Assembly (NCBI RefSeq): GCF_016862635.1 | Contig: NZ_BONI01000031.1 | Location: forward strand, 1 to 64,000 | DNA: 64,000 nt | Reading direction: 5' to 3' | From: Catellatospora coxensis | GTDB lineage: Bacteria; Actinomycetota; Actinomycetes; Mycobacteriales; Micromonosporaceae | Shown: in pieces, positions 359 through 32,205 of the stretch | Layout: each line of letters begins with the position of its first letter | Position numbering within the stretch: the stretch's first letter is position 1 | Translations under genes and position numbers: made by a program | The notes under the pieces: model-generated | Told to the model about the DNA's origin: nothing | The model's input: the letters and a program-made list of their open reading frames with translations, nothing else | Databases searched by the model: none

Positions 359-2806
359 TCAGGCAGGATCGGTGTCGTCCAGAACTGCCCGGGTCGCCTG
401 GGCCTCGGTCTCGAGCCTGCTGTCGAGGCTGTCGGCGAGCAGCTCCAGGGCACGGGCCAGCTCAGCCTGGGCCTCTGCCGAACCTGTACCGTCCAGCGTG
501 GGCAGCATCACCCGGGCCTCGTCCTCGAGGCGACTGGGCAGGCTGTCGGCGAGCATCTCCAGGGCACGGGTCAGGTCCGCCCGGGCCTCGGCGGGCCGGC
601 CGAGCGCGGCCCGGGCCTTGCCCCGCAGCACGAGCGCGAAGGCCACCATGTCCTCGTCACGGTTCTCGATCAGCACCGGCAGCGCCCGTTCGACCGCGTG
701 CAGCGACTCCTCGGCGCGCCCGGCGCGCTCGAAGCATGACGCCACGCCGTACAACGCGCCGGACCGGGTGGTGAGGGCCGGGCGGCCGGCCACCGGACGA
801 CGGTCGAGTTCGGTCAGGGCGCGCTGGAACTCGCCGACCGCCTCGTCGTAGCGGCCCAAGCCTTCCAGCGCATAGCCGCTGCCTGTCAGAAGATCCACGT
901 ACAGGGCGTGGTCGCCGGCCCGGTCGGCGAGCTCGGATGCGGTGCGGTGGGCCCACAGCGCATCGTCGTGCCGGCGGAGGCTCACCCGGGCGGCACCGGC
1001 CGAGCCGAGAGCACGGGCCTGCTCCTGGAGGTCGCCGATCGACTGCGCGAGCCGGTACGCCTCCATCGCCGCCTCCTCGGCCTCCTCGTACAGGGCCATC
1101 AGATACACCGCCGTCCAGGCATAGAGGCTGGTGTGGAAGGCCTGCTGCCGCCGGTCGGGCAGCGCGTTCGCGGCGGCGCGGGCCAGCCGGCGCACCTCCC
1201 ACCAGACGCGCCACCGCAGCGTCTCCTCGGAGTACCAGCGGGTCGCCACGGCGACGTCGGCGACGAGTTGGTGCCGGCCTCGGGCGGCGGCGGTGCGCAA
1301 CGCCGGCAACCAGTTGTCGGCCTCCGCCCGCAGCCAGGCGTCAGCCTCCTCCGCGGTGGCCAGGGGCACCAGACCGGCCCAGCCGTCGGGCAACCCGCCG
1401 TACTCGGGCTCGTACCACCGGCCGGCGACGACGACGGTGTCCAGCAGCCACGTGTTCATCCGTTCGGCGGTCTCCGCCCGGGTGTCGGGTGGTTCCTCGG
1501 CGTGCAGCCGCTCGTCGGCATAGAGCCGGATCAGGTCGTGGAAGCGATACCGGTCGACACCCTCCGCTTGCAGCAGCCCGACCTCCACCAGATCATCCAG
1601 GCGGTCCTGGGCGTCCGGCAGCTCGGCCTCGATGAGCGCCGCCGCGAGCGGTGCCGCGAAATCGGCCGCCGGCACGTGGGCGAGGCGGCGGAACAGCTGG
1701 GCGGTGGGAGCGGGCAGTTGCGCGTACGACAACGCGAACGCCGGCGCCACTCCGGTGTCGCCCGCGGACAGCGCGGCCAGCCGGTGACCGGCATCGGTGA
1801 GCCGGTCGACCAGCTGCCCGACCGTCCATTGCGGCCGGACGGCGAGACGGGTCCCGGCGATCCGCAGGGCCAGCGGCAGGTGCCCGCACAGGTCGGCGAC
1901 CCTGTCGACGTGCTGCGCCATCTGCGGGTCGGCGGCCTGCACGGCGATGGAGCGGAGCAGGCCGGCGGATTCCTCCGGCGCGAGGGGCGACAGCGCGATC
2001 CGCAGCACCCCTTCGAGGCCACCGAGCGCGCGCCGGCTGGTCGCGATGACGAGGCACCTGCCGCCCGCGGGTAGCAGCGGCCGGACCTGCGCCTCCGAAC
2101 CGGCGTTGTCGAGGACCAACACGCATCGCCGATCACGCAGAATCCCCCGTAGCTGGGCGCAGCGCTCATCGTCGCTGTCGGCGACCTGGTGAGGTCTGAT
2201 GCCGAGCGCACGCAGCAGACGCAGCAGGGCGTCTCCGGCGGGAAGCGGCACGGCGTCGACCCCGCGCAGGTCGACGTACAGGCAGCCGTCGGGAAAGTCG
2301 TCGCGCAGCTCGTTCGCGGCCCAGAGCGCCAACGCGGTCTTGCCCAGTCCCGGCTGGCCGTGCACGACGAGCACCGGCGGCAGGTCGTCGCCCTCGACGG
2401 CGCGTATCGCGGCCTGCCGGACGATCTCGAACTCGGCCTGCCGCCCGACGAAGTCCGTGACGCCCCTTGGCGGCTCGCACAGCCGGGGACGGCCGGCTGC
2501 GCTCGGGGAGCGGGCCTCCTTCGCCGCGGCCGTGAGGCCGGCCCTGGCGTCACTGTCGAGGCCCAACCCGTCGGCGAGAGCGGCGAGGGTGCGAGCCTGC
2601 GGTGCGCGGCTGTGCCCGCGTTCCATGTCGGAGATGGCCCGGGTGCTGATGCCGGACCTCTCCGCCAACTGCTCGAGGGTCAGGCCGGCGGCACGCCGCA
2701 ATGTCCGTAGGAGGTTGCCGAACGTGGATGCCTGGACCGGTGCCGTCGTCAACGCCCGGCGCCGGTCAGCGAGGCGATCCTGGTGGGGACGTGTGCGTAG
2801 CCCCAC
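359..2806 (-). CDS. XRE-type HTH regulator with NB-ARC (STAND) ATPase and TPR repeats
   Basis: The protein has about 815 residues. The N-terminus carries an XRE helix-turn-helix (LRRAAGLTLEQLAERSGIS, ending in SDMERGHSR). A STAND/NB-ARC ATPase follows, with Walker A GQPGLGKT near residue 150 and Walker B VLVLDNAG, and then TPR-like helical repeats in the C-terminal half. Such proteins are signal-responsive transcription regulators, often within secondary-metabolite clusters. It lies directly downstream of the P450 on the same strand. The GTG at 2806 overlaps the P450 end by 58 bp. A TTG at 2752 overlaps the P450 stop as TTGA and would give a tightly coupled start immediately before the HTH. 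The ligand is unknown. Confidence 0.85.
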   Translation of the reverse strand: MGLRTRPHQDRLADRRRALTTAPVQASTFGNLLRTLRRAAGLTLEQLAERSGISTRAISDMERGHSRAPQARTLAALADGLGLDSDARAGLTAAAKEARSPSAAGRPRLCEPPRGVTDFVGRQAEFEIVRQAAIRAVEGDDLPPVLVVHGQPGLGKTALALWAANELRDDFPDGCLYVDLRGVDAVPLPAGDALLRLLRALGIRPHQVADSDDERCAQLRGILRDRRCVLVLDNAGSEAQVRPLLPAGGRCLVIATSRRALGGLEGVLRIALSPLAPEESAGLLRSIAVQAADPQMAQHVDRVADLCGHLPLALRIAGTRLAVRPQWTVGQLVDRLTDAGHRLAALSAGDTGVAPAFALSYAQLPAPTAQLFRRLAHVPAADFAAPLAAALIEAELPDAQDRLDDLVEVGLLQAEGVDRYRFHDLIRLYADERLHAEEPPDTRAETAERMNTWLLDTVVVAGRWYEPEYGGLPDGWAGLVPLATAEEADAWLRAEADNWLPALRTAAARGRHQLVADVAVATRWYSEETLRWRVWWEVRRLARAAANALPDRRQQAFHTSLYAWTAVYLMALYEEAEEAAMEAYRLAQSIGDLQEQARALGSAGAARVSLRRHDDALWAHRTASELADRAGDHALYVDLLTGSGYALEGLGRYDEAVGEFQRALTELDRRPVAGRPALTTRSGALYGVASCFERAGRAEESLHAVERALPVLIENRDEDMVAFALVLRGKARAALGRPAEARADLTRALEMLADSLPSRLEDEARVMLPTLDGTGSAEAQAELARALELLADSLDSRLETEAQATRAVLDDTDPA

Positions 2807-3981
2807 AAGGAATGCGAGTGTGTGCCGGTCGGCCGGCCCGCGGATGCGACCTCTCCTACGTGGCGGGCGAGGAAGCGGAGCAGGGCTGCGATCTCGATTC
2901 GGGCAAGCGCGGCCCCGAGGCAGTAGTGCGGGCCGTAGCCGAGGGTAACGTTCGCGCGCGACGGGCGCGCGATGTCGAAGGTGTCCGGTCGCTCGAACAC
3001 GGCTGGATCACGGTTTCCCGCCGGCAACCAGGCGGTGACGACGTCTCCTGCGGCGATGGGCATGCCTGCCAGCACCGTGTCGCTCTCCGCGGTGCGGCAG
3101 TCGTTCAGCACCGGTGACGTCCAGCGCAGCACCTCCTCGACCGCCGGGCCGGTCAGGCTCGGCGATCGGCGCAGCAGTTCCAGTTGCTCAGGCTGCTCCG
3201 CCAGCGCGACCATCGCGCCGGACATCGCCAGCCGGGTCGTCTCGTTCGCGGCGACGAGCATGCTGAGCAGGTTGAGAAGAAGATCCTGATAGGGAAGCCG
3301 TCCCGCGTCATGCCGGCTCACCAGGCGTGCGGTGACGTTGTCTCCACGACGTACGGCGGGCGAGGCGGCGAGCTCGTCGAAGTAGCTCAGGATCTGAATG
3401 CGCGCCCCGCTGGCCCGGCTATTGTCCGCGATCGGGTCGCCGGTGGACTCCTGCATCGTCAGCACGCCGTTCGCGAGGTCGCGCAGCATGGGCGAGTCGC
3501 CCACCGGAACTCCCATGATGGCGCAGGTCACCATCAGCGGTGCGCGCCAGGCGATCTCGTCCGCGAAGTCGAACGCGTCCCCGTCGAGGTGGGGGGTCAT
3601 GTGCTCCTCGAACAGTTCATCGAGTTCGGTGTCGAACCGGGCGATGTTCCTGGCTCCGAAGATCGAGCGTACCTCGTCGCGCAGCGCCTTGTGGGGCTCG
3701 CCGTCCATGACGCCCAGCATCCTCCCGCCGGCCGGGTCGGGATGGTGCGGGCCGAAGCCGAGGAACACGCCGTAGTGGGAGACGAACGTGCGATTGTCGC
3801 TGAGCAGCGCCCTGATCTCCTTCCAGCCGGTCAGTGACCAGAAGTCGCAGTCGAGCGCGGAGGACCGGGCGCGGGTGATCGGGGAGGTCTCGCGCAGTCG
3901 AGCCCAGTGGGCGTGGGGCGGAGCCGGGTCGAAGGTGCTGGGGTCGCCCAGGTCAACGCCCATGGACTCCGCGTGATTCAT
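2749..3981 (-). CDS. cytochrome P450 of the biosynthetic cluster
   Basis: This is a 410-residue class I bacterial P450. Visible motifs are the I-helix AANET (244-248), the K-helix EEVLR (282-286) and the haem-binding loop GYGPHYCLG with Cys354; the usual leading Phe of that loop is Tyr. There is no membrane anchor, so it is soluble and needs ferredoxin partners, which are not encoded here. I start at the ATG at 3981 (MNHAESMG) because the longer frame to 4065 reads into the promoter region without P450 character. It is transcribed away from the polyketide operon across a shared intergenic region and probably oxidises the product or an ACP-bound intermediate. The substrate cannot be read from the sequence. 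Confidence 0.92.
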   Translation of the reverse strand: MNHAESMGVDLGDPSTFDPAPPHAHWARLRETSPITRARSSALDCDFWSLTGWKEIRALLSDNRTFVSHYGVFLGFGPHHPDPAGGRMLGVMDGEPHKALRDEVRSIFGARNIARFDTELDELFEEHMTPHLDGDAFDFADEIAWRAPLMVTCAIMGVPVGDSPMLRDLANGVLTMQESTGDPIADNSRASGARIQILSYFDELAASPAVRRGDNVTARLVSRHDAGRLPYQDLLLNLLSMLVAANETTRLAMSGAMVALAEQPEQLELLRRSPSLTGPAVEEVLRWTSPVLNDCRTAESDTVLAGMPIAAGDVVTAWLPAGNRDPAVFERPDTFDIARPSRANVTLGYGPHYCLGAALARIEIAALLRFLARHVGEVASAGRPTGTHSHSLWGYAHVPTRIASLTGAGR

Positions 3982-4143
3982 GTTCTGCAGGGTCGCATCC
4001 GGTGGTGACGGCCGGCTGACACGTCGTTGACACCGGGTGTAGCTGAGCTGTCCAGCGCCCGGCAAGCCGCGTCCAGCAGGGTTCCTCTCGTTCCGTTGAC
4101 GGGGATCCGGATACGCCGATGGCGCGAGATTAAGGGGATGAAG
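3982..4143. promoter_or_regulatory. divergent promoter region between the P450 and the polyketide operon
   Basis: This 160-bp spacer separates the leftward P450 from the rightward ACP gene. It contains TTGACA (4027-4032) and TTGACG (4096-4101), both possible -35 elements. TCCAGCG (4051-4057), GCAAGCC (4062-4068) and TCCAGCA (4072-4078) are spaced 10-11 bp apart, which resembles the heptamer direct repeats bound by SARPs. The AAGGGG at 4132-4137 is the ribosome site for the first ACP. The assignment to the nearby SARP is an inference. Confidence 0.4.
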
Positions 4144-4473
4144 ATGGCAGTGGAGACGTCCGAGGCGTTCAGCGCCTCAGCCGCTGAGGAGCTGCTCGCG
4201 GCACGGTTCGCGGCGACACTTTACATCGATCGTGCGGACGTCGATCTGGATCAGCCGTTCTCGGAGGCGGGACTGGACTCCATCCTCGCCGTCGAGTACG
4301 TGACGGTGGTCCGCGACGAGTTCCAGATCGCCATGACCGTCGCGACGCTCTACCAGCAGCAGACGATCCGGCAGCTTGCCCGGCACATCGCCGCCCAGGC
4401 CGCGCCGGCGGAGGAGCTCGGCGCGCGCGGTGGCGACGACGGCGGCGACGCGAGAGTCGCGGATGTGGCATGA
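4144..4473 (+). CDS. acyl carrier protein, probable beta-branching acceptor ACP
   Basis: This 109-residue phosphopantetheine carrier has the attachment site GLDSI with Ser46. AAGGGG six bases upstream fits an ATG at 4144 better than the ATG at 4138. Six residues after the serine (DSILAVEY) sits Tyr52. In beta-branching acceptor ACPs this position is normally the flag Trp of the DSx5W motif, so an aromatic residue is kept. The C-terminal 25 residues are a flexible Gly/Asp-rich tail. The stop overlaps the next ATG by 4 bp. I infer that it carries the beta-ketoacyl chain that the HMG-ACP synthase modifies. Confidence 0.85.
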   Translation: MAVETSEAFSASAAEELLAARFAATLYIDRADVDLDQPFSEAGLDSILAVEYVTVVRDEFQIAMTVATLYQQQTIRQLARHIAAQAAPAEELGARGGDDGGDARVADVA

Positions 4474-4766
4474 CGGAGCATCCGATGACCGAGGATTCCG
4501 TGTTCCGCGTTGTCAGGACACAGATCTGTGAGGTCATGGACGGGCTGCGGCCCGACGACGTCACGCTGGACGACCGGTTGGCGGACCTCGGCGCGGACTC
4601 CATCGACCGCATGGACGTCGTCGCGGGCGCTCAGCGCCAGCTCGGCCTGGAGCTGGAGCCCCGGCGATTCGCCGGCGTCAGCGACATCCGCTCACTCGTA
4701 GCCACCCTGCACGCTGCGCTGTCGGAACAATCGCGCCATCCCGGCGGGCAAGCGGTCCCCCGATGA
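4470..4766 (+). CDS. acyl carrier protein, probable acetyl-donor ACP of the HCS cassette
   Basis: This is a 98-residue discrete ACP with the site LGADSIDRMDVV and Ser44. The LGxxSxDRxx(I/V) pattern is the one I know from donor ACPs of HMG-CoA-synthase cassettes (AcpK of bacillaene type). It differs clearly from ACP1, and it lacks the aromatic flag residue. The start overlaps the upstream stop (ATGA, 4470-4473), and its stop overlaps the HMG synthase start (ATGA, 4763-4766). Its expected role is to receive malonyl from the AT, be decarboxylated by the Ser-ketosynthase to acetyl-ACP, and donate acetyl to the HMG synthase. Confidence 0.85.
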   Translation: MTEHPMTEDSVFRVVRTQICEVMDGLRPDDVTLDDRLADLGADSIDRMDVVAGAQRQLGLELEPRRFAGVSDIRSLVATLHAALSEQSRHPGGQAVPR

Positions 4767-6016
4767 GGTCGGTCGGCATCGAGGCCATCCACGCGTACGG
4801 CTGCACCGCGTTCGTCGACGTCGCGGACATCTTCGCCGCACGCGGGCTCGACGGCACGCGTAGCGGGAATCTGATGATGCACCGCAAGGCGGTGCCGCTG
4901 CCGTGCGAGGATGTCGTCTCGCTCGCGGCCAGTGCGGCGTGGCCGATCGTCGCGGCCCTGTCCCCCGACGAGCTGAGCACGATCCGCACGCTCATCGTCG
5001 CCACCGAGTCCGGCGTGGACTTCTCGAAGTCGGCGAGCACCTACGTGCACCGGCTGCTGGGACTGTCCCGGAACTGCCGGCTGTTCGAGGTGAAGCAGGC
5101 CTGCCACGCGGGAGTCGCGGCGCTGAGGTCCGCCGCCGCGCTGGTGGGCCATGAAGGCGGCCGAGCGCTGGTGATCGCCGGAGACATCCCGACCGCGGCG
5201 CGTGGCACGTACGCCGAGCCCAGCCAGGGGGCCGGCGCGGTCGCCGTGCTGGTCGGCGAGCCGCGCGTCGCCGAGCTGGTCTTGGACAGGTCCGGCTGCC
5301 ACAGCTACGAGACGGCGGACTTCAGCCGGCCGCGGGCCGACCTTGACCTGGTCGACATCGACCTTTCCCTGCTGACGTACATCGAATGCCTGGACGGCGC
5401 GTTCGCGGACTATGCGATGCGGGGCGACGGCGCGCACTTCGTGGACTCGTTCGACGCGCTCGCCATGCACACGCCGTTTCCGGGAATGGTCAAGGGCGCG
5501 CACCGCACCGTGGTGCGGCGGCGCGGCTGGCTGGCTCCGGCGGCGATCGAAGAGGACTTCGACCGGCGGGTCGCCGCGTCGCTGCGCTATCCGCGCATGG
5601 TGGGCAACATCTACTCGGGCTCGACCCTGCTGGCCGTGGCTAGCGCGATCGCCCACACCGCCCCGGAGCAGGAAAGACTCGGCGTGTTCTCCTACGGCGG
5701 CGGCTGCGCCTCGGAGTTCTTCGCACTGCGCGTCCAGCCGGGCGGCCACGCCGCTGTCGCACAGGCCGGGATCGACCAGGCCCTGGAACAGCGGCGAAGG
5801 CTGACGATCGCCGAGTACGACACCATTCTCGACGCGTTGCCGCAGGTCGCCTGCGGTGTGCAGGATGCCGCGCCGGACCTCGACCGGTTCCGCCATGCCA
5901 TCGACGCGGCGAGCGCGACCCGGCCGATCGCACTGCTGTCGGCGATCAAGGGTTACCACCGCGGATACACCTGGATGAAGGGAGGCCAGCCGTGGATGCC
6001 GGAACCGGTCATGTGA
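4763..6016 (+). CDS. HMG-CoA-synthase-like enzyme (HCS) for polyketide beta-branching
   Basis: This 417-residue thiolase-fold enzyme adds acetyl (from an ACP) to a beta-ketoacyl-ACP to give an HMG-type thioester. The catalytic residues fall where family members have them: Glu82 in VATESG, Cys114 in VKQACHAG and His236 in ALAMHTPF. Length and sequence match polyketide HCS proteins (PksG/CurD/MupH type) rather than primary mevalonate enzymes, and the ACP and ECH neighbours support this. Start and stop are both coupled: ATGA with ACP2, and a 25-bp overlap with ECH1. No degradation of active-site motifs is visible. Confidence 0.93.
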   Translation: MRSVGIEAIHAYGCTAFVDVADIFAARGLDGTRSGNLMMHRKAVPLPCEDVVSLAASAAWPIVAALSPDELSTIRTLIVATESGVDFSKSASTYVHRLLGLSRNCRLFEVKQACHAGVAALRSAAALVGHEGGRALVIAGDIPTAARGTYAEPSQGAGAVAVLVGEPRVAELVLDRSGCHSYETADFSRPRADLDLVDIDLSLLTYIECLDGAFADYAMRGDGAHFVDSFDALAMHTPFPGMVKGAHRTVVRRRGWLAPAAIEEDFDRRVAASLRYPRMVGNIYSGSTLLAVASAIAHTAPEQERLGVFSYGGGCASEFFALRVQPGGHAAVAQAGIDQALEQRRRLTIAEYDTILDALPQVACGVQDAAPDLDRFRHAIDAASATRPIALLSAIKGYHRGYTWMKGGQPWMPEPVM

Positions 6017-6750
6017 CGGTGCGCCGAGGACCCGCCCACGTGCGGGCGGTGCTGACGCGGCCCGCCGAGGGCAACACGCTGACGCCGGGCCTCATCGCGA
6101 GCCTGTCCGAGGCGCTGGACGAAGCGGAACGCACACCGGACTGCCGCCTGTTCGTCCTGACCGCCGAGGGCGGCTCCTTCTGCGAAGGGCTCGATCTCGC
6201 CGACGACGACCTGGTCCGGCGCTGGGATGACGCCGTGGCCGAGCAGTTCCACACCCTGATCACCAGGCTGCGCAACAGCCCGCTGGTGACCGTCGCGCTC
6301 GTCGGCGGGCCGGCGGCCGGCGGCGGCGTCGGCCTGGCGGTCTCCTGTGACCTGGTGTACGCGTCGCCGAAGGCGAGTTTCCGGCTGACCGAGGTCCTGC
6401 TCGGCCTGTCACCGGCGATGATCCTGCCGAACATTGCCCGGCGGGTCGGCGAGACACTCGCCTTCCGGCTCGCGCTGCTCGCCGAGGAGGTCCGGGCAGA
6501 AGACGCGGATCGCATTGGGCTGGTCGACGCTGTCACGGACGACCTGGACATCATGGTGCGCCGCACGCTGACGGCCCTCGGCCGGATGGATCCGGCCACG
6601 ATCGCCCAGCTCAAGGCGACGCGGGGCCTGCTCTTCGCCGACGAGCCCCGCTACAGCGAGTACGCCAAGCAGCTGCTCGGCAGGCGGCTGGGTGATCCGT
6701 TCGTACGGAACCGCATCGATCGGCTGCGCGCGGAAGGGCTGCTGCGATGA
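5992..6750 (+). CDS. enoyl-CoA hydratase-like dehydratase ECH1 of the HCS cassette
   Basis: This 252-residue crotonase-fold protein starts at a GTG preceded by AAGGGAGG with six bases of spacing, inside the end of the HMG synthase gene. It shows the crotonase oxyanion-hole regions (SFCEGLDL near residue 63 and the GGPAAGGGVGLAVSCDL segment near 104-120). The CEGLD form resembles the PksH/CurE type, which dehydrates HMG-ACP to 3-methylglutaconyl-ACP. Its place directly after HCS and before a second crotonase supports that role. The next gene overlaps by ATGA (6747-6750). Confidence 0.88.
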   Translation: MDAGTGHVTVRRGPAHVRAVLTRPAEGNTLTPGLIASLSEALDEAERTPDCRLFVLTAEGGSFCEGLDLADDDLVRRWDDAVAEQFHTLITRLRNSPLVTVALVGGPAAGGGVGLAVSCDLVYASPKASFRLTEVLLGLSPAMILPNIARRVGETLAFRLALLAEEVRAEDADRIGLVDAVTDDLDIMVRRTLTALGRMDPATIAQLKATRGLLFADEPRYSEYAKQLLGRRLGDPFVRNRIDRLRAEGLLR

Positions 6751-7676
6751 CCGGTGACGTGATCGACTACTCCCCGGTCGTGCTGCGGCTGGATCCGCCT
6801 GTCGCGACCATCGTGATGCGGGATCACGAGGGGCGCAACGCGATCCGCCCGCCGCTGCAGCGCGCCATGCGCCGGGCCCTGGCGACGGCGGCCGCGGAGG
6901 AGGACATCCGCGTCGTCGTCGTCACGGGCCTGCCGGAGGTGTTCTGTGCCGGCGCGGCGCGAGAAACGCTGCTGGGAGTCGAGGGCGGCCAGAAGCACGA
7001 CGACTACGAGCCGTTCGCCCGCCTGTTTCCGCGCTGCCCGCTTCCGGTGATCACGGCCATGGACGGCCACGCGATCGGCGGCGGGTTGGTGGTCGGCCTG
7101 TACGCCGACATTCCGGTGCTCAGCGAAAGATCGCTGTATGCGGCCAACTTCCTCCAGTACGGTATGGCTCCCTACATCGGGACCACCCACGTGATCCCCT
7201 CACGGCTCGGCGAGGCGCTCGGCGCGGAGATGATCTTGACCGGGCGCAGCTACCGCGGTTCGGAACTCCGCGCGCGCGGCGCATCGGTCCTCGTGGTCCC
7301 GCACGACAAGGTGATGTCGACCGCGAAGGCGCTGGCCCATCAGGTCGCGAAGGCTCCGCGCCGCTCCCTGGAACTGGTGAAGGCACAGCTCTCGGCAAGG
7401 ATCATGGCGGCGACCGACACCGCGATGGCCGCCGAGCTCGGGCCCCACCTCGACTCGGCCAAGCTTCCCGTCGTCCGGCAGCTCGCCGCGTCGGGATACG
7501 GACCGCCCACGCCTGCCAGCGCCATGACGACGCATGTCCCGGGCAACGGCAGCCGCGTCCTGCCGGCAGCCGGCCGGGCACCTTCGCTCGACGCGGGGGC
7601 AGCCAGAGAGATCGCGTCTGGTCATGCCGCCCACCCGGCAGACACCCGCGGTCCGTACATGATCGAAGGTCGCTGA
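6747..7676 (+). CDS. enoyl-CoA hydratase-like decarboxylase ECH2 of the HCS cassette
   Basis: This 309-residue crotonase-fold protein has the motif HAIGGGLVVGLYADI, and then NFLQYGMAPYIGTTHVIPSR, the local signature of ECH2 decarboxylases (usually GFTPGxGAT). The known ECH2 reaction removes CO2 from 3-methylglutaconyl-ACP to leave a beta-methyl enoyl thioester. The last 55 or so residues are a low-complexity Ala/Gly/Pro extension beyond the usual length of about 250. It overlaps ECH1 by 4 bp at its start, and its stop shares one base with the ketosynthase ATG (TGATG). Confidence 0.88.
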   Translation: MTGDVIDYSPVVLRLDPPVATIVMRDHEGRNAIRPPLQRAMRRALATAAAEEDIRVVVVTGLPEVFCAGAARETLLGVEGGQKHDDYEPFARLFPRCPLPVITAMDGHAIGGGLVVGLYADIPVLSERSLYAANFLQYGMAPYIGTTHVIPSRLGEALGAEMILTGRSYRGSELRARGASVLVVPHDKVMSTAKALAHQVAKAPRRSLELVKAQLSARIMAATDTAMAAELGPHLDSAKLPVVRQLAASGYGPPTPASAMTTHVPGNGSRVLPAAGRAPSLDAGAAREIASGHAAHPADTRGPYMIEGR

Positions 7677-9424
7677 TGGGCCACCCGTCGGCGATTCCGG
7701 TGGCCATCGTCGGCATGGCCGCCCGTGTCCCCGGCGCGGAGGACTCTCGAGGCTACTGGGACCTGCTCAACTCCGGGCAGACGATGATCGCTCCGGTGCC
7801 CGACGGCCGGTTGCGAGGGTTCTCACCGGACATGGCCGGCGTGGACGTGCCCTGGGCGGCGTTGTGGGCTGACACGGACGACTTCGACCCGAGCGTCTTC
7901 GGGATCTCGCCACGGCTCGCCGCGTGGATCGATCCGCAGCAGCGCCTGCTGTTGGAGGCGAGCTGGCACGCGCTGGAAAGCGCCGGGATACCGCCCAGCA
8001 GCCTTGGCGGCAGTGACACCGCGGTGTACGTCTCGACCACGGCCAGCGACTGGCGGCAGGTGATGGCCGACGAGGGGCTGGTCGACCGGTACTCCGCGCT
8101 GGGGCTGCTGCTCACCTACCTGTCCAGCCGGATCTCCTACCAGTACGACCTGCGCGGACCGAGTCTGACGATCGACACTGCCTGCTCAGGCGGCCTGACC
8201 GCCGTCGCGCTGGCGGTGTCGGGGTTGCGGTCCGGGGACTACCGCACCGCGATCGCGGCCTCCGCCAACCTGTATCTGCACGGCTTCATGCATGCGGTGA
8301 TGATGCGCTTCGGCGCGCTCTCCCCGACCGGTCAGGCGCGCAGTTTCGACGACGCCGCGAACGGCTACGTCCGCGGCGAGGGCGTGTTCTGCTTCGTGCT
8401 CAAGCGGCTCAGCGACGCCTTATCCGACGGCGACCCCGTGCTCGCGGTGATACGCGGCTGCAGCCTGAACCACGACGGGCGAGCCGGCGGGATGACCTTG
8501 ACCGATCCCGCCTCCCTGGCACGCCTCATGCAGACGGCCCTGGCGCAGGCCGGTGTGGACGTCGCGGATCTCGGGTACGTGGAGGCGCACGCCGCCGGCA
8601 CTCCCCTGGGCGACGCGCAGGAGGTACACGGTCTCCTCCACGCGCTCCGCGACCGGCCGGGCGGGATGCCGAACCAGGGCAGCGGGCCTGAGCAGCGGCT
8701 GTGGGTCGGCTCGGTCAAGTCCAGCATCGGCCACCTGGAAGGGTCCGCCGGTGCGGCCAGCCTCGCCAAGGCCGTTCACGTGCTGCGCCACCGTTCCATC
8801 CCGCCGACGCCGGGATTCGCGGACCTCAACCATCGGATCGACCTCGCCGGAACACCGGTGGCCATCGCCCAGGAGGCGGTCCCGTGGCCGGACGGATCCC
8901 ACGGACCACGGCTCGTCGGCGTCAACTCCTTCGGCGTCGGCGGCGCCAACGCACACGTCGTCCTCGAAGAACCGCCGCGACAGCCGCACACGGAAACCGG
9001 CCACGGTGATCAGGCGATGCCGGTGCCGCTCAGCGCGGCCACCGACGCGGCCCTGATGCAGCTGGCGGGCGCCCTCGCGGCGGTGTCGGCGGAGGGCCCG
9101 AGTTTTGACGCCGTCACCTGGACCCTGCAGACCGGCCGCGAAAGCATGCGTTCTCGCCAGATCGTCGTCGCCCAAGACATCGACGAGCTGCGGGAAGCGT
9201 TGACCGCGCTCGCCGAAGGCACCGCCGACTCTGACGCGCTCGCCGCGCAAACCGCCCGGCTGTCCGCAGAAGGTGCTCGGCTGGCGTCGGTCTGGCTCGC
9301 GGGCGATGAGGTCGACTGGTCAGCGCTGTGGCAGCACCGCATCCCGCCGCGTCGCGTCGAGTTGGCGAGCTACCCGTTCCAGCGGCGGCGGTTCCCGTTC
9401 CCGCCGGCCGCGCGCGAACGCTAG
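7676..9424 (+). CDS. free-standing trans-AT-type ketosynthase
   Basis: The protein has 582 residues. Residues 1-430 form a modular-type KS with the complete Cys170 (DTACSGG), His305 (EAHAAGTPLGD) and His353 (KSSIGHLEGSAG) triad, so it should condense. Residues 440-582 match the KS-flanking linker of trans-AT synthases, ending in ELASYPFQRRRFPF. No AT, KR, DH or ACP domain follows, so one module's KS has become a stand-alone protein served by the separate AT and ACPs. It could make acetoacetyl-ACP or extend an imported acyl chain. A domain broken off a larger synthase is the alternative view, but coupled start codons and intact motifs argue for a working gene. Confidence 0.9.
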   Translation: MGHPSAIPVAIVGMAARVPGAEDSRGYWDLLNSGQTMIAPVPDGRLRGFSPDMAGVDVPWAALWADTDDFDPSVFGISPRLAAWIDPQQRLLLEASWHALESAGIPPSSLGGSDTAVYVSTTASDWRQVMADEGLVDRYSALGLLLTYLSSRISYQYDLRGPSLTIDTACSGGLTAVALAVSGLRSGDYRTAIAASANLYLHGFMHAVMMRFGALSPTGQARSFDDAANGYVRGEGVFCFVLKRLSDALSDGDPVLAVIRGCSLNHDGRAGGMTLTDPASLARLMQTALAQAGVDVADLGYVEAHAAGTPLGDAQEVHGLLHALRDRPGGMPNQGSGPEQRLWVGSVKSSIGHLEGSAGAASLAKAVHVLRHRSIPPTPGFADLNHRIDLAGTPVAIAQEAVPWPDGSHGPRLVGVNSFGVGGANAHVVLEEPPRQPHTETGHGDQAMPVPLSAATDAALMQLAGALAAVSAEGPSFDAVTWTLQTGRESMRSRQIVVAQDIDELREALTALAEGTADSDALAAQTARLSAEGARLASVWLAGDEVDWSALWQHRIPPRRVELASYPFQRRRFPFPPAARER

Positions 9425-9437
9425 CGAAGGAGACGCC

Positions 9438-10685
9438 GTGACTGATGTCGTGATCTCCGCGGCCGCGGTCCTGAACGCGCTCGCCGGCGGCCTGGCCGGG
9501 TTCGCGGACGGACTGCGCGCCGGGCGCACCGCTGTGACCGGCGTGGACGGACGGTTGCCGGCCTCGGCCCGCACCGCCGCAGGCGCATGGTTGGAGGACT
9601 TCTCGGTACGCGGGTGGATGGACCGGCAGGGGTGGCAGCCCGAGGCCGGTGGCGGACTGATCCGCGCGACCCGCAGATCGGCGATGCCGGCCCAGACGGC
9701 TGCCTGCGTGGCGGTTCGCGCCGTGTTGGACGCCGGGCTCACCCCGGGCGACCTCGACGGGACCGCCCTGATCGTGGCAGGCGGCAATCTGGCCATGGGC
9801 TACCAGGCACAGGCCCTGGAAGCGTTCGCCGCCGGTTCGCTTCGGCCGTCCCACGCCCTGACCTGCCTCGACTCCGATGTGATCGGCGTGGTGAGCGAGG
9901 CGACCGGCATTCGCGGCGAGGCGAGCGTGATCGGGGCGGCCTCGGCGAGCGCGGCGGTGGCCCTGATCGCCGCCGCGCGCCTGCTGTCCGCAGGCGCCGC
10001 GGACCACTGCGTGGTCGTCGCGCCGCTGGCCGAGTTGTCGGCGGCGGAGTTCCGTGCGCTGCACGACAGCGGAGCCATGGCCGGTCCCCACGCCGCGACG
10101 GCGCCCCATCAGCTCTGCCGACCGTTCGACCAGGACAGGCGTGGTTTCGTCTACGGTCAGGGCGCCGCCGCGGTGGTCCTGGAGAACGGGCGACGGGCAC
10201 TGGCCAGAGGCGTGCGGCCGCTCGGGCGCATCCTCGGGCACGGCCAGCGGCTCGACGGCCGGCGTGGCACCGAACCGGACCCGCACGGCCAGGTCGCCGC
10301 GATGCGGGCCGCGCTGGCGGCGGCCGACGTCACGCCGGCGGACGTCGACTACGTCAACGCCCACGCGACAGGCTCCGTGGCCGGTGACGCCGCGGAGGCC
10401 CGGTCGCTGCACGAACTTTTCCAGGGTGGCCGTACTCCCCTGGTCAACTCGACCAAGGCGCTGATCGGCCACTGCATGTCCGGGGCGGGACTGCAGGAAC
10501 TCATCGCCGTCATCGTGCAGATGGAGCACGGATTCGTCCACGGCAACCCGAACCTCCGGCAGCCGTTGACGCCGGCGCTCGCACTGGTCGGCCCCGCCGC
10601 AGTGCCGGCGCAGATCGGCCTGGCGATGACCAACAGCTTCGGATTCAGCGGAATCAACGCGTCACTGATCGTCGCACGCGGCTGA
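9438..10685 (+). CDS. decarboxylative ketosynthase (KS0, active Cys replaced by Ser)
   Basis: This 415-residue KAS II-like protein starts at GTG 9438 behind GAAGGAGA; the open frame upstream overlaps the KS gene and is not coding. The nucleophile position reads GAASASA with Ser169 in place of Cys, while both histidine motifs remain (NAHATGSVAGD and STKALIGHCMSG). This pattern defines the decarboxylating ketosynthases of HCS cassettes (PksF/CurC type), which turn malonyl-ACP into acetyl-ACP for the HMG synthase. It is 13 bp after the KS and 17 bp before the AT. Confidence 0.9.
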   Translation: MTDVVISAAAVLNALAGGLAGFADGLRAGRTAVTGVDGRLPASARTAAGAWLEDFSVRGWMDRQGWQPEAGGGLIRATRRSAMPAQTAACVAVRAVLDAGLTPGDLDGTALIVAGGNLAMGYQAQALEAFAAGSLRPSHALTCLDSDVIGVVSEATGIRGEASVIGAASASAAVALIAAARLLSAGAADHCVVVAPLAELSAAEFRALHDSGAMAGPHAATAPHQLCRPFDQDRRGFVYGQGAAAVVLENGRRALARGVRPLGRILGHGQRLDGRRGTEPDPHGQVAAMRAALAAADVTPADVDYVNAHATGSVAGDAAEARSLHELFQGGRTPLVNSTKALIGHCMSGAGLQELIAVIVQMEHGFVHGNPNLRQPLTPALALVGPAAVPAQIGLAMTNSFGFSGINASLIVARG

Positions 10686-10702
10686 GGGCAGGGAGTCAGA
10701 AG

Positions 10703-11566
10703 ATGACGGTGGTGGTGATGTTCCCGGGGCAGGGTGTGCAGCGCCTGGGCATGGGCCAGGACCTGTTCGACGAGTTCCCCGACATCGAGGCCGCCGCCAG
10801 CGATGTGCTGGGCTACTCCCTGCGGCAGTTGTGCACTCACGACGCCCACCACCAACTCGACGACACGCGGTACACCCAGCCGGCCGTGTACATGGTCAAC
10901 GCCTTGGCCTACCGCCGCTGGCTGGCCAACGCAGAGGAACCCGACCTGGCGATCGGCCACAGTCTCGGCGAGCTCAACGCGCTCGAGGCGGCGGGCGTGT
11001 TCGACCTGCTGGACGGACTGCGGCTGGTGGTGGCGCGCGCGCAGTGCACCGCAGGCGTACCCGGTGGAATGACCGCCGTTCTCGGGCTGCCCGAGGACGA
11101 AGTCCGTAGCGCGCTCGCGTCCGGCGGCTGCCACGATGTCGAGATCGCCAACTTCAACGGGCCGACGCAGCTCATCCTGGCCGGGCCCGTGGCCTCCCTC
11201 ATCGCCGCCGAGTCGGCGTTGAACACAGCGGGCGCGGCAGACATCCGCAGGCTCGCCGTGGACGGCCCCTTCCACTCCTCCCACATGTCCGCCGCGGCAG
11301 CCGGATTCGCGACCGCGACCCATGCCGTGACCATGCGCGAACCGTCGTTTCCGGTGATCGCCAACCGGACGGCGAAACCACACCAGATCGGCGAACTGCC
11401 ACGCATGCTCGCTGAGCACCTCGACCATCCCGTGCTCTGGCACAGAACGCTCATGACGATTCTGGATCAGGACAGCTACTGCAGTCTGATCGAAATCGGC
11501 GGCCCGGGAATTCTCACCAGAATGGCGGCACGACTTCGCCCGCAGCCCCTCAGAAGTCCGTCCTGA
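10703..11566 (+). CDS. free-standing malonyl acyltransferase (trans-AT)
   Basis: This 287-residue FabD-like protein has GQGVQRLGMG at the N-terminus, the nucleophile elbow GHSLGE with Ser87, Arg112 (VVARAQ), which would bind the malonyl carboxylate, and catalytic His191 in VDGPFHSSHM. GHSLG rather than GHSQG fits malonyl over methylmalonyl. It should load both ACPs. The ribosome site GGGAG precedes the ATG. It is the last gene of the rightward operon and faces the SARP gene tail to tail. A proofreading hydrolase is an alternative, but no other loading AT is present in the cluster. Confidence 0.9.
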   Translation: MTVVVMFPGQGVQRLGMGQDLFDEFPDIEAAASDVLGYSLRQLCTHDAHHQLDDTRYTQPAVYMVNALAYRRWLANAEEPDLAIGHSLGELNALEAAGVFDLLDGLRLVVARAQCTAGVPGGMTAVLGLPEDEVRSALASGGCHDVEIANFNGPTQLILAGPVASLIAAESALNTAGAADIRRLAVDGPFHSSHMSAAAAGFATATHAVTMREPSFPVIANRTAKPHQIGELPRMLAEHLDHPVLWHRTLMTILDQDSYCSLIEIGGPGILTRMAARLRPQPLRSPS

Positions 11567-11637
11567 CCACGCGGAAGGCACTCTCATGCGACTCAGCCGT
11601 GTTCCTCCGGCCTGGGGACCCGCATCGCGGGACTCGC

Positions 11638-12444
11638 CTACGCCGGCCAGGTCGTCATCATATGAACCGGAGCACTTGTCGCAGGCGCCCGAAGCACCGG
11701 ATCCTGGCGCAGCACCCGCGTCGCCGTCTCGCGGAGCTGAGGGGACGGCTCGACACCCAGCTCGCTCTGCAGAAGGCGACGCACCGAATGATAGGCGTCC
11801 AGCGCCTCGCTTTGGCGCTGACACCGATACAGCGCGATCATCAACTGGACGTGGAAGCGCTCATAGAACGGGTGGGCCAGCACGAGTTCTCTCAGCTCGC
11901 CGATCAGCTGTCGATGCAGCCCGAGTTCCAGCTTGGCATCCATCACCGTCTCGAGCGTGGCCAGGTGTGTCTCCTCGAGCCGGGCGCGGGTGATGCGGCC
12001 CAGCGTTCCGAGTTCATGTCCCGCGAACGGGATTCCGCGCCAGAGGGCCAACGCCTGCCTGCCCGATTCGATCGCGCGCAGCGGGTTGCGCGGCCACGCT
12101 TCTGCGCAATCGCCGGCCAAGTCCGAGAACACGCAGATGTCCACCTCCGCGCGATCCGTGTGCAGCACATACCCGGGATGGCGCCAGTCGATGCGCGCCT
12201 CGACGCCGCTCAGATGCGATGCAAGATCCTTGCGCAGGCGCGCGACGTGCGCATGGACTGTCTGCGCCGCGCCTGCCGGCGCATCCTGCTCCCAGATCTC
12301 GCCGATGACCTGATCGATGCTCAGCACCGTATTGACATGCGCCACGAGTGCGGCCAGCAGGCGCGACCTGCGTCCGGGTGTGACGGAACGTGATTGTCCC
12401 GGTGAGCCGGTCAGGAACGGCCCTAAACATTGAAAGCTTGCCAC
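11638..12444 (-). CDS. small SARP-family activator
   Basis: This 268-residue protein has the minimal SARP layout: a winged-helix OmpR-like DNA-binding domain (about 5-95, with the LSIDQVIGEIWEQDAP segment and the HAHVARLRKDL recognition region), followed by a BTAD helical domain (about 100-250). It has no ATPase part. It starts at a GTG with GGGAGG just upstream. SARPs of this size are pathway-specific activators, and it closes the polyketide operon on the right, so it probably activates the promoter at 3982-4143. A 15-bp palindrome lies about 50 bp upstream of its start. Confidence 0.9.
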   Translation of the reverse strand: MASFQCLGPFLTGSPGQSRSVTPGRRSRLLAALVAHVNTVLSIDQVIGEIWEQDAPAGAAQTVHAHVARLRKDLASHLSGVEARIDWRHPGYVLHTDRAEVDICVFSDLAGDCAEAWPRNPLRAIESGRQALALWRGIPFAGHELGTLGRITRARLEETHLATLETVMDAKLELGLHRQLIGELRELVLAHPFYERFHVQLMIALYRCQRQSEALDAYHSVRRLLQSELGVEPSPQLRETATRVLRQDPVLRAPATSAPVHMMTTWPA

Positions 12445-13407
12445 ATGTCCTCCCGCCGCAGGAGCAGGCCCTCACCCGCCGACCACGACGCCCCGTGACG
12501 CGGCGTCACCGGGACGAGCTAGGCCTTCAGATATGCGGCTAGGTTCGTCTGGCGACTACAGGCGACACGTGACGATAAATGGTAATATTTGGATTGGTGA
12601 GACCGTGCTGCCTTCAACCGCTTGAGCCACAGCGTAGCTCGGACGGTTGAACACAGAACTACATCCTGTTATGGCTCTAGAAGCTAGTGCGTGGCACGAC
12701 GGGAGTCCATGCCCAATATCACTCAGTGATTTCTCGACCCACCGTTGTCGGCCGTCGCGCCTCGGCCACGACTCCGTCCGGTGTGTCACCTCGAGGTAGG
12801 GCTTCAGGTGCAGGTTCTCGGCCCGGTGTCGACTCCGAGCCGGCCTGGTCAGTTGCGTCTCGGCAGCAATCCAGGGCTGACTTTCCTAGCCGTCCGGCTA
12901 GCTGACCTTGGCGCTTCGGCCGATGGGAGCGCACCCAGACCTGCTCCACTCATCTCACCACCTGAGATGCCGGATAGGGAAGGGGCGAGTGCCGCCCGGT
13001 GCGCGGGTGAACGGATCGGGAGTTCGGCAGCAGCGTGATGCACCGGCGCCGGAAACCTGGTGCCACGTGGACCGGGTGGTCTGCGTCCCGCTCGCTCACC
13101 CGGTCCACGCCCATCGCAGCCGCCTTGAGCGGGCATTGTCATCCCGCAGAGGTCCGTCCTGCCATGCGGGCACTTGATCGCACGGGGCGGGGTCAGCCGC
13201 GCGTCCTGTCAGGCAGGTTGACGAGCCATTGCGGGGCCTGGGTCAAGCTGCTCGCGAACGTGCGCGGGGCACGCGTCATCGGACTTGCCGCAGGGCCATC
13301 GGCGAGGTCAGGGTGCGAGTCCGTTTCCGGGCGGCCGACCCAGCGCCACCTGTCCACCGCGCAAGGACGCGCCGCCCACGATCCGGCAGGGTACCAGCCG
13401 CATTCCG
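12445..13407. other. gene-poor intergenic region with inverted repeats
   Basis: I see no convincing gene in this stretch of about 960 bp; its GC3 pattern breaks down compared with its neighbours. It contains an A+T-richer patch (about 12570-12600), the palindrome at 12495-12509, a 7-bp-arm hairpin CTAGCCGTCCGGCTAG (12886-12901) and perfect 12-bp arms GTGGACCGGGTG (13067-13078) and CACCCGGTCCAC (13097-13108). One forward frame around 12802 reads LQVQVLGPV, which resembles the first strand of a SARP and may be a decayed fragment. Confidence 0.5.
12495..12509. promoter_or_regulatory. 15-bp palindrome upstream of the SARP gene
   Basis: GTGACGCGGCGTCAC has perfect 7-bp arms around one central base. 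It lies 51-65 bp upstream of the SARP start, which is a typical operator position. The bound protein is unknown. Confidence 0.4.
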
Positions 13408-14360: not shown

Positions 14361-15149
14361 ATGAACACCACCCGCCGAACACTTCTGGCCGGTTCCGCCG
14401 CGGTCGCCACCGGAGCGCTTCTCGGCGTGCCCCCCGCGCAGGCCGGCGCCCGTCACGACGCCAGGCCGACCGTGGTGCTCGTGCACGGCGCGTTCGCCGA
14501 CGCCTCCGGCTGGGACGGCGTCGCCAGCCGGCTCATCCGCGACGGCTACCCGGTCATCGCTCCGCCGAACCCGCTGCGTGGTGTGGCCGCCGACTCCGCC
14601 TACCTGGCGAGCTTCCTCGCCACCTTGAGTGGCCCGGTCGTGCTGGCCGCGCACTCCTACGGCGGGATCGTCGTCACCAACGCCGCGACCGGAAACCCGA
14701 ACGTGAAGGCGCTGGTCTATGTCGCCGCGTTCGCGCCCGATCAGGGCGAGACGCTGCTGGGCATGCAGTCGCAGTACCCGGGAAGCAAGCTCAACGAGAC
14801 CGCGCTGGACATCCGCCCCTACGCCGGCGGCGTCGACGGCTACATCAAGAAGGAGGTCTTCCGGGAGGTGTTCGCCGGCGACCTGCCGCGGTCGAGCACC
14901 GCCCTCATGCACGCCGGCCAGCGGCCTGCCGACCTGCGCACGCTGCAGGAGCCGTCCGGCGCGCCGGCTTGGGCGGCGATTCCCTCCTGGTACGTCGTGG
15001 CGCGCAACGACAACGTCCTGCCGGCCGCGGCGCAGCGGTTCATGGCGCAGCGCGCCGGCGCGCGGGTGACCGAGGTCAGCGCCTCGCACGTGGCGATGGT
15101 CTCGCAGCCGGGTTCGGTGGCGGACGTCATCAAGCGGGCCACCCGCTGA
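14361..15149 (+). CDS. secreted alpha/beta hydrolase (Tat signal)
   Basis: The protein has 262 residues. The N-terminus TRRTLLAGSAAVATGALLG is a twin-arginine signal, with probable cleavage after AQA. The mature part is an alpha/beta hydrolase with VLVHGAFADASGW, nucleophile elbow AHSYGG and C-terminal His in SASHVAMVSQP; the acid is probably the Asp in ARNDN. It resembles short EstC/salicylate-esterase-like hydrolases whose substrates are often unknown. It is single and rightward, with a hairpin (15213-15246) downstream. Confidence 0.85.
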   Translation: MNTTRRTLLAGSAAVATGALLGVPPAQAGARHDARPTVVLVHGAFADASGWDGVASRLIRDGYPVIAPPNPLRGVAADSAYLASFLATLSGPVVLAAHSYGGIVVTNAATGNPNVKALVYVAAFAPDQGETLLGMQSQYPGSKLNETALDIRPYAGGVDGYIKKEVFREVFAGDLPRSSTALMHAGQRPADLRTLQEPSGAPAWAAIPSWYVVARNDNVLPAAAQRFMAQRAGARVTEVSASHVAMVSQPGSVADVIKRATR

Positions 15150-15246: not shown

Positions 15247-15295
15247 CTGACCAAGGTCACGCCGGCTGAGCGGCGTGTGGCGACGGAGGAACCAG

Positions 15296-25887: not shown

Positions 25888-25912
25888 GGCACCTCGCCTC
25901 TGTTGAAGTGGA

Positions 25913-27748: not shown

Positions 27749-27776
27749 GGTCGTGTCTCCGATCTGGGGTATGGGT

Positions 27777-28604
27777 TCAGCCCTTGTTGCCGCTGAAGGC
27801 GATGCCTTGGATGAAGTGGCGCTGCATCACGGTGAACAGCACGATGACGGGCAGCGAGGCGAGCAGGGACCCGGCCATGAGCACCGGGTAGTCGGTCTGG
27901 AACTGGCCCTGCAGCGAGGCCAGGCCCGCCGACAGGGTCATCTTCTCCGGGTCGGTGTTGACGATCAGGGGCCAGAACAGGTCGTTCCAGGACCACAGCA
28001 CGGTCAGGATGCCCAGGGCGAGCAGGCCGGGTTTGGCCAGCGGGAGCATGACCGACCAGTAGATGCGCAGCGGGCCGGCGCCGTCGAGGCGGGCGGCCTC
28101 GTCGAGTTCCTTGGGCAGGCCGAGGAAGAACTGCCGGAGCAGGAACACGCCGAACGCGGAGAACAGGCCGGGCACGATGAGCGCGGTGAGGCTGTTGAGC
28201 CAGCCCAGGTCGGCCATGATCTCGTACTGGGGGATGACGAACAGGGGCGGCGGCACCATCAGCACCGACAGGAAGACGCCGAACAGCAGGCCGCGGCCGG
28301 GGAAGCGCAGCCGTGCGAACGCGTACGCGGCCATGGAGCAGAACAGCAGCTGCCCGGCGGTGCGGGCGGCGGTCATCAGCACCGTGTTGACGATCTGGTC
28401 GCCGAAGGGCAGCAGCCCGAACACGTCGCCGTAGTTGGACCAGCGCCAGTCGGGCGCGATGGTGGGCGGCACCTTCGTGGCGTTGGTGAGGGTCTTCAGC
28501 GAGGTCAGGAACTGCCACAGGAACGGGCCGACCATGACCGCCGCGCCGATGAGCAGCGTGACGTGGGTGGCCGTGCGGCCGGCGCGCCGCGGGGACTCAG
28601 CCAT
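27777..28604 (-). CDS. ABC sugar importer permease, MalG type (CUT1)
   Basis: The protein has 275 residues and six transmembrane helices. The cytoplasmic EAA loop reads EAARLDGAGPLRIYWSVMLP, which couples to the ATPase. It overlaps the partner permease by 8 bp and belongs to the binding protein-MalF-MalG-GH135-GH114 operon. It should import the oligosaccharides released by the two secreted glycosidases. No ATPase gene is adjacent. Confidence 0.92.
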   Translation of the reverse strand: MAESPRRAGRTATHVTLLIGAAVMVGPFLWQFLTSLKTLTNATKVPPTIAPDWRWSNYGDVFGLLPFGDQIVNTVLMTAARTAGQLLFCSMAAYAFARLRFPGRGLLFGVFLSVLMVPPPLFVIPQYEIMADLGWLNSLTALIVPGLFSAFGVFLLRQFFLGLPKELDEAARLDGAGPLRIYWSVMLPLAKPGLLALGILTVLWSWNDLFWPLIVNTDPEKMTLSAGLASLQGQFQTDYPVLMAGSLLASLPVIVLFTVMQRHFIQGIAFSGNKG

Positions 28605-29574: not shown

Positions 29575-29580
29575 GTGCTG

Positions 29581-30843: not shown

Positions 30844-30902
30844 CTGAGGAACCCTTCTCGCAAGGAAGTCATCGGGGATCTGGGTCACATGTGCTAGCCC
30901 AG

Positions 30903-30925: not shown

Positions 30926-30964
30926 TTGTCAAGACCCGTCCCCGGGCTCCGCTGTGCCGAGGCC

Positions 30965-32194: not shown

Positions 32195-32205
32195 TCCTCC
32201 ACGGG

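Follow-up and report, generated by a model that had tools for sequence, protein, structure and literature searches.

The genome of a Catellatospora coxensis strain (9.35 Mb in 222 contigs) contains, at 4144-11566 of the window, an operon that couples two acyl carrier proteins (ACPs), a 3-hydroxy-3-methylglutaryl (HMG)-ACP synthase (HMGS), the crotonases ECH1 and ECH2, a discrete ketosynthase (KS), a second KS with its Cys changed to Ser (Ser-KS) and a trans-acting acyltransferase (AT). The window is the whole stretch of DNA analysed, bases 1-64000 of contig C31 (96,589 bases), and its base 1 is the contig end. In our view these genes probably form a dissociated, self-contained HMG-CoA synthase (HCS) cassette for beta-branching, the product of which would be a short beta-methyl acyl-ACP of the 3-methylcrotonyl type, oxidised on its carrier by a co-inherited cytochrome P450. 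This view is based on the gene set and its open frames, the catalytic residues, the donor and acceptor signatures of the ACPs, the grouping of the KS and of the P450, and the recurrence of the cassette without a modular polyketide synthase (PKS). An earlier reading of the sequence alone (the sequence-only reading) had described the same operon, with no modular synthase in view. Domain searches agree with it for every gene, and the operon's two KSs are the sole KSs found on the whole 96.6-kb contig. Its claim of self-containment is likewise well supported: acceptor and donor ACP, elongating KS and AT are all encoded in the operon, no AT-less modular PKS was found in the genome, and similar sets stand alone in other genomes. 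The interpretation of the sequence-only reading as a whole is partly supported.

The eight genes follow each other unbroken on the plus strand, with spacings between neighbours of -4, -4, -25, -4, -1, 13 and 17 bases (Table 1), and they include the full set of HCS enzymes, i.e. a donor ACP, a Cys-replaced KS decarboxylase, HMGS, ECH1 and ECH2, with catalytic residues. The best solved relative of the HMGS is 8s81 (an HMG-CoA synthase-like protein, 428.8 bits), followed by CurD and PksG, and the alignment retains the motifs ATESGVD, KQAC and MHTPF, whose Glu, Cys and His we take to be catalytic. The AT is FabD-like and reads GHSLG and FHSSHM, presumably motifs of the malonyl type. ECH1 scores best (177.6 bits) against 8ahq/8ahz, which is VirD (PMC10006238; this and the other papers cited are drawn on in part), and keeps a Glu (FRLTEVL) and an Asp (FCxGxD) at the positions named for PksH and VirD; the roles of these and of the ECH2 residues follow PMC7501309 and PMC10006238. 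The best solved relatives of ECH2 are CurF and PksI, and it keeps a His aligned with the C-terminal His of CurF, taken as the catalytic one. A CurF-type lysine is absent from it and, by eye, from 28 other non-reference rows of the alignment; since lysine mutants of PksI are still active (PMC7501309), its absence is not counted against ECH2 activity. According to the motif table, the first KS has Cys-His-His, and the second has Ser at the nucleophile position with both His kept. The alignment of the discrete KS with the PksJ KS structure covers residues 8-576 of 582 and takes in the linker, and the Ser-KS most likely starts at GTG 9438, preceded by the ribosome-binding site GAAGGAG. A consensus scan of 3900-12500 gave 0 promoter-like sites (0.3 in shuffles) and 1 terminator-like site (1.9 in shuffles), none above chance.

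ACP serine motifs were read upstream of HMGS in related loci, the flag being the residue six after Ser. Acceptor ACPs were obtained from 11 of the 13 loci of the modular type (none came from L045 and L059, and L050 and L051 belong to this set by the HMGS tree only), and seven matches were left out of the counts by eye (L041 7779, L048 7736, L052 7273, L057 7855 and three in L059). The acceptor-like ACPs of these loci read [LM]G[VL]DS[IV]L, followed by an acidic residue or Gln and then by F, Y or L, with Phe or Tyr at the flag in 18 of 20. Eight other ACPs of the same stretches read LG[IV]DSLL with Val or Ile at the flag (0/8 aromatic), and the donor ACPs read LGANSIDRMDVV or close to it. ACP1 of the window (AGLDSILAVEYV) falls into the acceptor motif class and ACP2 (LGADSIDRMDVV) into the donor class, and the operon thus brings both acceptor and donor. 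Tyr or Phe occupies the ACP1 flag in 11 of 13 cassettes, the window included, whose KS carries the HA[AP]GT motif described below. In virginiamycin ACP5b, a Phe stands at the place of the Trp flag of mupirocin (PMC10006238).

The discrete KSs form a group of their own. In a maximum-likelihood tree of 61 KSs, 16 discrete KSs lie on one side of a branch (100/100), and after the addition of seven further KSs, among them the nearest modular ones from plasmids and from genome G536, 19 discrete rows form one group (96/95), which adjoins the modular KS pair of the streptogramin-like loci and one KS of G536. The window KS reads HAAGT in place of HGTGT. Of the 16 discrete KSs, 13 share the pattern HA[AP]GT, which is absent from the 45 others of the tree and from four weak KS matches left out of it; the three discrete KSs of type II-like loci read HGSGT. 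HA[AP]GT is also present in L110 and L111, not in L115. The neighbouring KS of Streptomyces xanthii follows lipoyl, E2-acyltransferase and ACP domains (a loading unit) and probably carries out the first elongation in its synthase; because that KS is starter-proximal, the discrete KS is taken to accept a short starter. A plasmid collection gave 22 records with HMGS relatives and six with KS relatives. Of its KS matches, H21 and H22 read HGTGT (H22 in a large PKS and non-ribosomal peptide synthetase (NRPS) gene), H26 groups with the KSs of type II-like loci, H23 and H25 are annotated as NRPS, and H24 carries no annotation. In the HMGS tree the loci with HAPGT split off, and the window with its nearest kin lies between them and the modular ones.

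Comparison across actinomycetes, which the sequence-only reading had called for, revealed that the operon layout recurs in other actinobacteria, also of other families, and that some of these relatives have it without a modular PKS. In Micromonospora sp. CB01531 (L054), the genes from ACP1 and ACP2 to AT have the same order, with a divergent P450 (identities to the window: HMGS 59%, ECH1 51%, ECH2 58%, KS 49%, Ser-KS 48%, AT 54%), and no KS beyond the cassette was found in the whole 72.5-kb contig. The stretch 790-930 kb of the 6.88-Mb contig of Saccharothrix algeriensis (~60 kb on each side) gave only the discrete KS and a FabF-like KS of the same operon, and no KS besides the cassette's own was found at 258-338 kb of the Saccharopolyspora spinosa scaffold. 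The Lentzea stretch has additional FabF-like KSs, none in a long PKS frame. Among 28 named loci from one HMGS scan, 11 are modular, the KSs beside their cassettes lying in frames of 1255-2585 residues, and two (L050, L051) have no long-frame KS in a short stretch and group with the modular loci in the HMGS tree. The remaining 15 have HMGS beside a discrete KS of their own (stop-to-stop frame 572-932 residues), three of them (L061-L063) in type II PKS-like clusters; the layout is thus not unique to this genome. The KS was found at E up to 1e-128 in 6 of 397 genomes of the order sample, own genome included, and four of the other five match loci already seen (L054, L056, L060, L065). It was found in 3 of 394 genomes of the class sample, own included, one of which proved modular and one a lone KS. 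Within the genus, HMGS at 1e-20 occurs in 2 of 11 genomes, our own and G010; the two HMGS genes of G010 (L036, L037) lie 45 kb apart, are 45-47% identical and not close to that of the window, and no KS of G010 reaches the window KS at 1e-130.

A modular synthase was looked for in the remainder of the genome, in which one HMGS gene and 21 KS matches were found. Type I KSs occur on contigs C9, C166, C153, C162, C23, C5 and C94, and an AT domain or a cut AT piece is present on all seven. The ACPs recognised on the first five of these have Leu at the flag (7/7); those of C5 and C94 were missed by the flag motif, and the match VEGDSVPGIL of L029 was dropped as not ACP-like. One KS of C5 stands in a 490-residue frame without an AT seen in that frame, and the KSs of C153, C162 and C166 and one of C23 run off contig ends. 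By eye, C1 has a FabF-like gene adjoining a FabD-like gene at 8.7 kb and a type II-like KS pair (307-309 kb) near aromatase-like and SARP-like (Streptomyces antibiotic regulatory protein) genes in C1:298000-317900 (L118), and the remaining matches lie on C40, in KS-like frames of 399-884 residues, and on C69 and C13, in genes that resemble thiolases. None of the KS places on C1, C40, C69 and C13 shows a long PKS frame, and an AT match occurs there only at 8.7 kb of C1. No AT-less modular PKS and no aromatic-flag ACP was recognised in the genome outside the operon. An AT-less modular synthase carrying the acceptor ACP, which accompanies an HCS cassette of the usual kind, was found neither on the contigs of this genome nor near the relatives of the nearest subgroup.

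As C31 ends at base 1 of the window, its left flank can be approached only indirectly. The conserved backbone of the genus starts at window position 22,256 (93% identity to three relatives) and resumes ~27 kb further in genome G002, the equivalent here being C106:15213 onward. Between these edges lies an island whose ends are C31:22,255 and, to the left, C106:15,212, and which is interrupted by an assembly gap of unknown length. The contents of this hotspot differ among G002, G004, G006 and our own genome, and the backbone is conserved on both sides. By eye, C106:1-15,212 holds a MoxR/vWA-like set and, at the contig end, a gene for a WD40-repeat protein (L101 1-12319). No KS match was found in C106:1-19900, the other hotspot edge, and no tRNA at the hotspot in L091, L092, L093 and L095; a tRNA-Arg at 19526 of L101 lies within the conserved side. 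A modular PKS to the left of the operon, looked for through genus synteny, the C106 edge of the hotspot, the KS places of the genome and independent genomes, appears unlikely. The sequence-only reading had left room for a megasynthase left of base 1, and this reservation stands: the search for such a synthase in the flank, of the trans-AT type and with beta-branching ACPs, gave none, with the gap between C31 and C106 unread.

The P450 adjacent to the operon is a likely member of the pathway, as the sequence-only reading had suggested. In all five HAAGT cassettes with an operon (window, L054, L055, L058, L065) ACP1 has a P450 gene as its neighbour. The five P450s cluster apart (100/100) from 14 others (12 from the same stretches, two from elsewhere), i.e. 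they share a common ancestry in the nearest subgroup. The window P450 scores 240 bits with 3mgx, the best of 421 matched solved sequences, 204 with a CYP125 construct and 199 with 4l0e/4pxh. That of Micromonospora scores 248 bits with 4l0e, 224 with the CYP125 construct and 222 with 3mgx. 3MGX is OxyD (CYP146) and 4PXH a complex of P450sky (CYP163B3) with a peptidyl carrier protein (PCP), both enzymes being aminoacyl-PCP hydroxylases (PMC5238595). Their place among the closest solved relatives of both P450s favours, as far as sequence likeness can tell, an enzyme that acts on a carrier-bound acyl group. OxyD and P450sky differ in that their substrate is an aminoacyl-PCP; here it would be an acyl-ACP.

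From these data we infer the starter, the number of rounds, the product, the P450 substrate, the release and the end use. The individual steps are modelled on the literature on BonF-BonI and BonN, which install a beta-methyl branch in module 1, the discrete BonA_ACP2a accepting HMG formation in vitro (PMC12560621). The AT would load malonyl onto both ACP1 and ACP2, and the Ser-KS would decarboxylate malonyl-ACP2 to acetyl-ACP2. The discrete KS would extend a short starter, in the simplest case acetyl, once with malonyl-ACP1 to acetoacetyl-ACP1, onto which HMGS could transfer the acetyl group from ACP2. Dehydration of the resulting HMG-ACP1 by ECH1 and decarboxylation by ECH2 would then give a 3-methylcrotonyl-type thioester of ACP1, and the co-inherited P450 may oxidise the acyl group while it is bound to ACP1. 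Such a route on discrete ACPs would need malonyl-CoA alone.

Several observations weigh against this reconstruction. Leu occupies the ACP1 flag in Micromonospora L054, the locus with the most similar layout, and in Pseudonocardia L064, and an ACP flag in three type II-like loci is also Leu, which counts against a strict flag rule. The stand-alone loci do not form one group in the HMGS tree, and no Ser-KS was found in the Saccharothrix locus. The P450 lies outside the operon and divergent from it, the CYP125 construct is second in score for it, and the Lentzea P450 is not closest to OxyD (CYP125 142 bits first, CalO2 and 3mgx 114). Near the operon, nothing was recognised that could release, transfer or elongate the product, be it a thioesterase, an acyltransferase or an elongation system. 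Finally, the gap between C31:1 and C106:1 is of unknown length, and genes may therefore be missing.

Among the alternatives, a supply of starters deserves most attention, and we allow it a minor share of the probability: the cassette would hand 3-methylcrotonyl-ACP, or a close relative, to an enzyme elsewhere, such as a type II fatty acid synthase or PKS, a KASIII-like acyltransferase or an NRPS. FabF-like KS and extra ACP genes, judged by eye, adjoin the cassettes of S. algeriensis and Lentzea jiangxiensis (the latter also with KASIII-like and glycosyltransferase genes), and the C5 unit may accordingly be elongated there, a further point against the simple product proposed above. Three relatives lie inside type II PKS-like clusters, the discrete KS groups next to a starter-proximal KS, and the type II-like KS set of C1 near its aromatase-like gene is a possible partner or user of a branched starter, which would again speak against the free product. 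S. algeriensis (L055) is moreover a reported producer of senecioylpyrrothine, with the acyl group (CH3)2C=CHCO (PMC3826145). It is the acyl group predicted here for the cassette, perhaps by coincidence. Neither the window nor the Micromonospora contig gave a recognisable partner for the hand-over, and leucine breakdown yields the same acyl group as senecioyl. For acylation of the holomycin type, acyl-CoA rather than acyl-ACP has been proposed (PMC3826145).

We regard as rather doubtful an iterative route, in which the KS would retake and elongate the beta-methylated chain, HMGS, ECH1 and ECH2 would branch it again, and short methyl-branched polyenoyl-ACPs would arise from nothing but malonyl-CoA. 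Ring closure of a gamma-hydroxylated Z-3-methylcrotonyl thioester could yield a butenolide; in the iterative route the P450 would hydroxylate the terminal methyl group of the Z-unit, with thioesterase-free release as a beta-methylbutenolide. If true, it would represent a polyketide path to isoprenoid-like acids. Still less likely is that the cassette serves in trans a modular PKS elsewhere in the genome or in the assembly gap. The HCS cassette literature, in the titles and beginnings of abstracts covered, and the bongkrekic acid paper (PMC12560621), as far as covered, do concern modular synthases, and base 1 of the window is a contig end. Yet outside the operon no AT-less modular PKS or aromatic-flag ACP was recognised, although one KS of C5 shows no AT in its frame and the ACPs on C5 and C94 escaped the flag motif. 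An acceptor ACP, a KS and an AT are supplied by the operon itself, no KS was found on the C106 side of the hotspot, and relatives stand alone in longer contigs. Hardly credible is a remnant of a decayed trans-AT PKS cluster, for which the variable hotspot site, the absence of close HMGS genes from the 10 further genomes searched in the genus and the GC content at third codon positions (0.84-0.93 in island genes versus 0.94-0.98 in genes at 22294-33486) might be cited, but the frames are open, the catalytic residues kept, and the same layout with grouped KS and P450 occurs in other families. Equally remote, and already disfavoured, is a CoA-based HMG or leucine-type metabolism (mevalonate, Liu or Cpz5-like 3-methylglutaryl supply) in place of ACP chemistry: HMG synthases and crotonases occur in such pathways, and the HMG-CoA synthase Cpz5 of the caprazamycin cluster makes HMG-CoA that feeds 3-methylglutaryl-CoA (PMC9636800), but the window HMGS reaches 312-429 bits with 8s81, CurD and PksG and no more than 154 with other HMG-CoA synthases among the matches listed, and donor ACP, acceptor ACP and Ser-KS are all in the operon.

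The dissociated cassette shares its enzyme set, its catalytic residues where checked and its acceptor signature with the HCS cassettes of modular PKSs, such as those for virginiamycin M, bacillaene, curacin and bongkrekic acid. Unlike these, it combines a discrete acceptor ACP, an elongating KS and an AT in the operon with a HAAGT KS of the discrete group and an accompanying P450 group, and no modular synthase was found; because the latter was looked for, we class it as variant HCS chemistry and not as the kind that serves a modular PKS. The plasmid synthase of S. xanthii (L113, L116), which we take to be streptogramin A-like, has the same kind of HCS cassette, and one of its modular KSs is the neighbour of the discrete KSs in the tree. 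It differs in that this KS is part of a multidomain protein, in which lipoyl/E2 and ACP domains precede it, and reads HGTGT, the cassette being located between large PKS/NRPS genes. In caprazamycin biosynthesis, too, an HMG-CoA synthase (Cpz5) helps to furnish a natural product with a short branched acyl group, but on CoA thioesters; the terms beta-branch, acyl carrier protein and enoyl-CoA hydratase are absent from the PMC9636800 text as far as covered. Cpz5 is the closest non-modular, CoA-based precedent in the literature searched. No HCS or HMGS cassette without a modular synthase was found in that literature, i.e. in titles and beginnings of abstracts, closed-access papers not being covered. 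Each enzyme is thus already known, and the dissociated, self-sufficient layout with its own KS group and P450 was not met there.

Table 1. Genes of the beta-branching operon and its neighbours in the window.
Feature	Position	Strand	Evidence
ACP1, acceptor ACP of beta-branching	4144..4473	+	PF00550 61.5 bits; motif AGLDSILAVEYV, Tyr at aromatic flag
ACP2, donor ACP	4470..4766	+	PF00550 44.8 bits; best NCBIfam PRK07117 45.8 bits, below cut-off; motif LGADSIDRMDVV
HMG-ACP synthase	4763..6016	+	PF08540, PF01154; best solved relative 8s81
ECH1 dehydratase	5992..6750	+	crotonase; best solved relative 8ahq/8ahz
ECH2 decarboxylase	6747..7676	+	crotonase; above cut-off of NCBIfam PRK07110
Discrete elongating KS with KS-to-AT linker	7676..9424	+	PF00109 226.6 bits, KAsynt_C_assoc, RhiE-like KS-MAT linker
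KS decarboxylase (Cys to Ser)	9438..10685	+	best NCBIfam PRK07103 397.8 bits, below cut-off 445; Ser-His-His
Trans-acting AT, malonyl type by motif	10703..11566	+	PF00698 103.5 bits; FabD model 226.1 bits, below cut-off
Cytochrome P450, likely pathway member	2749..4065	-	PF00067; divergent from operon; start possibly ATG 3963 or 3981
SARP-type regulator, possible control gene	11638..12444	-	NCBIfam AfsR 142 bits, BagI/FevR 115 bits, both below cut-off
HTH - NB-ARC - TPR regulator, possible control gene	359..2806	-	Pfam HTH_31, NB-ARC, TPR_12

Of the two regulators, the SARP-type one lies convergent and downstream of the operon, and a SARP of 37% identity is found beside the Micromonospora cassette. 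The HTH - NB-ARC - TPR regulator has no relative at E 1e-20 in the compared loci over 5 kb. An alpha/beta hydrolase at 14361-15149 is 49% identical to one in the Micromonospora contig (two cases only), and at 15275-16918 a cyclic-nucleotide-binding domain is, by eye, apparently fused to a thioredoxin-reductase-like enzyme. Elsewhere in the Micromonospora contig (L068 8794-13948), alanine racemase, D-Ala ligase-like, dipeptidase-like and acyltransferase genes near a two-component system look, by eye, like a glycopeptide-resistance set.

Further variation was observed among the related loci. In L061-L063 (~3.5-15 kb) the HCS cassette lies, by eye, amid genes for KS-alpha, a second KS, an ACP, an aromatase-like protein and a ketoreductase; L061 has an LnmK homologue (PF18238, 270 bits) and L062 a related gene, perhaps indicating beta-alkylation tied to a type II PKS with a propionyl-derived branch. 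The HAPGT subgroup (L038, L040, L046, L049, L053, L056, L060, L110) has varying sets of neighbours, drawn from another P450 group, a HemN-like radical S-adenosylmethionine protein, an aminotransferase, a thiamine diphosphate enzyme, KASIII, a FAD enzyme, a cupin and a protein of ~214 aa without a Pfam match; it looks like one uncharacterised pathway. At L111 2161-4011 (G437), a lone HAAGT discrete KS stands near transposase-like genes, the rest of the cassette being absent from the 19 kb read, and is possibly a leftover.

Beta-branching has so far been studied as a service in trans to giant assembly lines, where the recognition of the acceptor and the timing of the reactions are hard to isolate. 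If the proposed reading is true, the C. coxensis operon would be the simplest natural system for reconstituting the whole beta-branching reaction from malonyl-CoA and a ready tool for the preparation of branched acyl-ACPs. It would also point to an unrecognised class of small branched actinobacterial metabolites, each with an oxidising P450 of its own.

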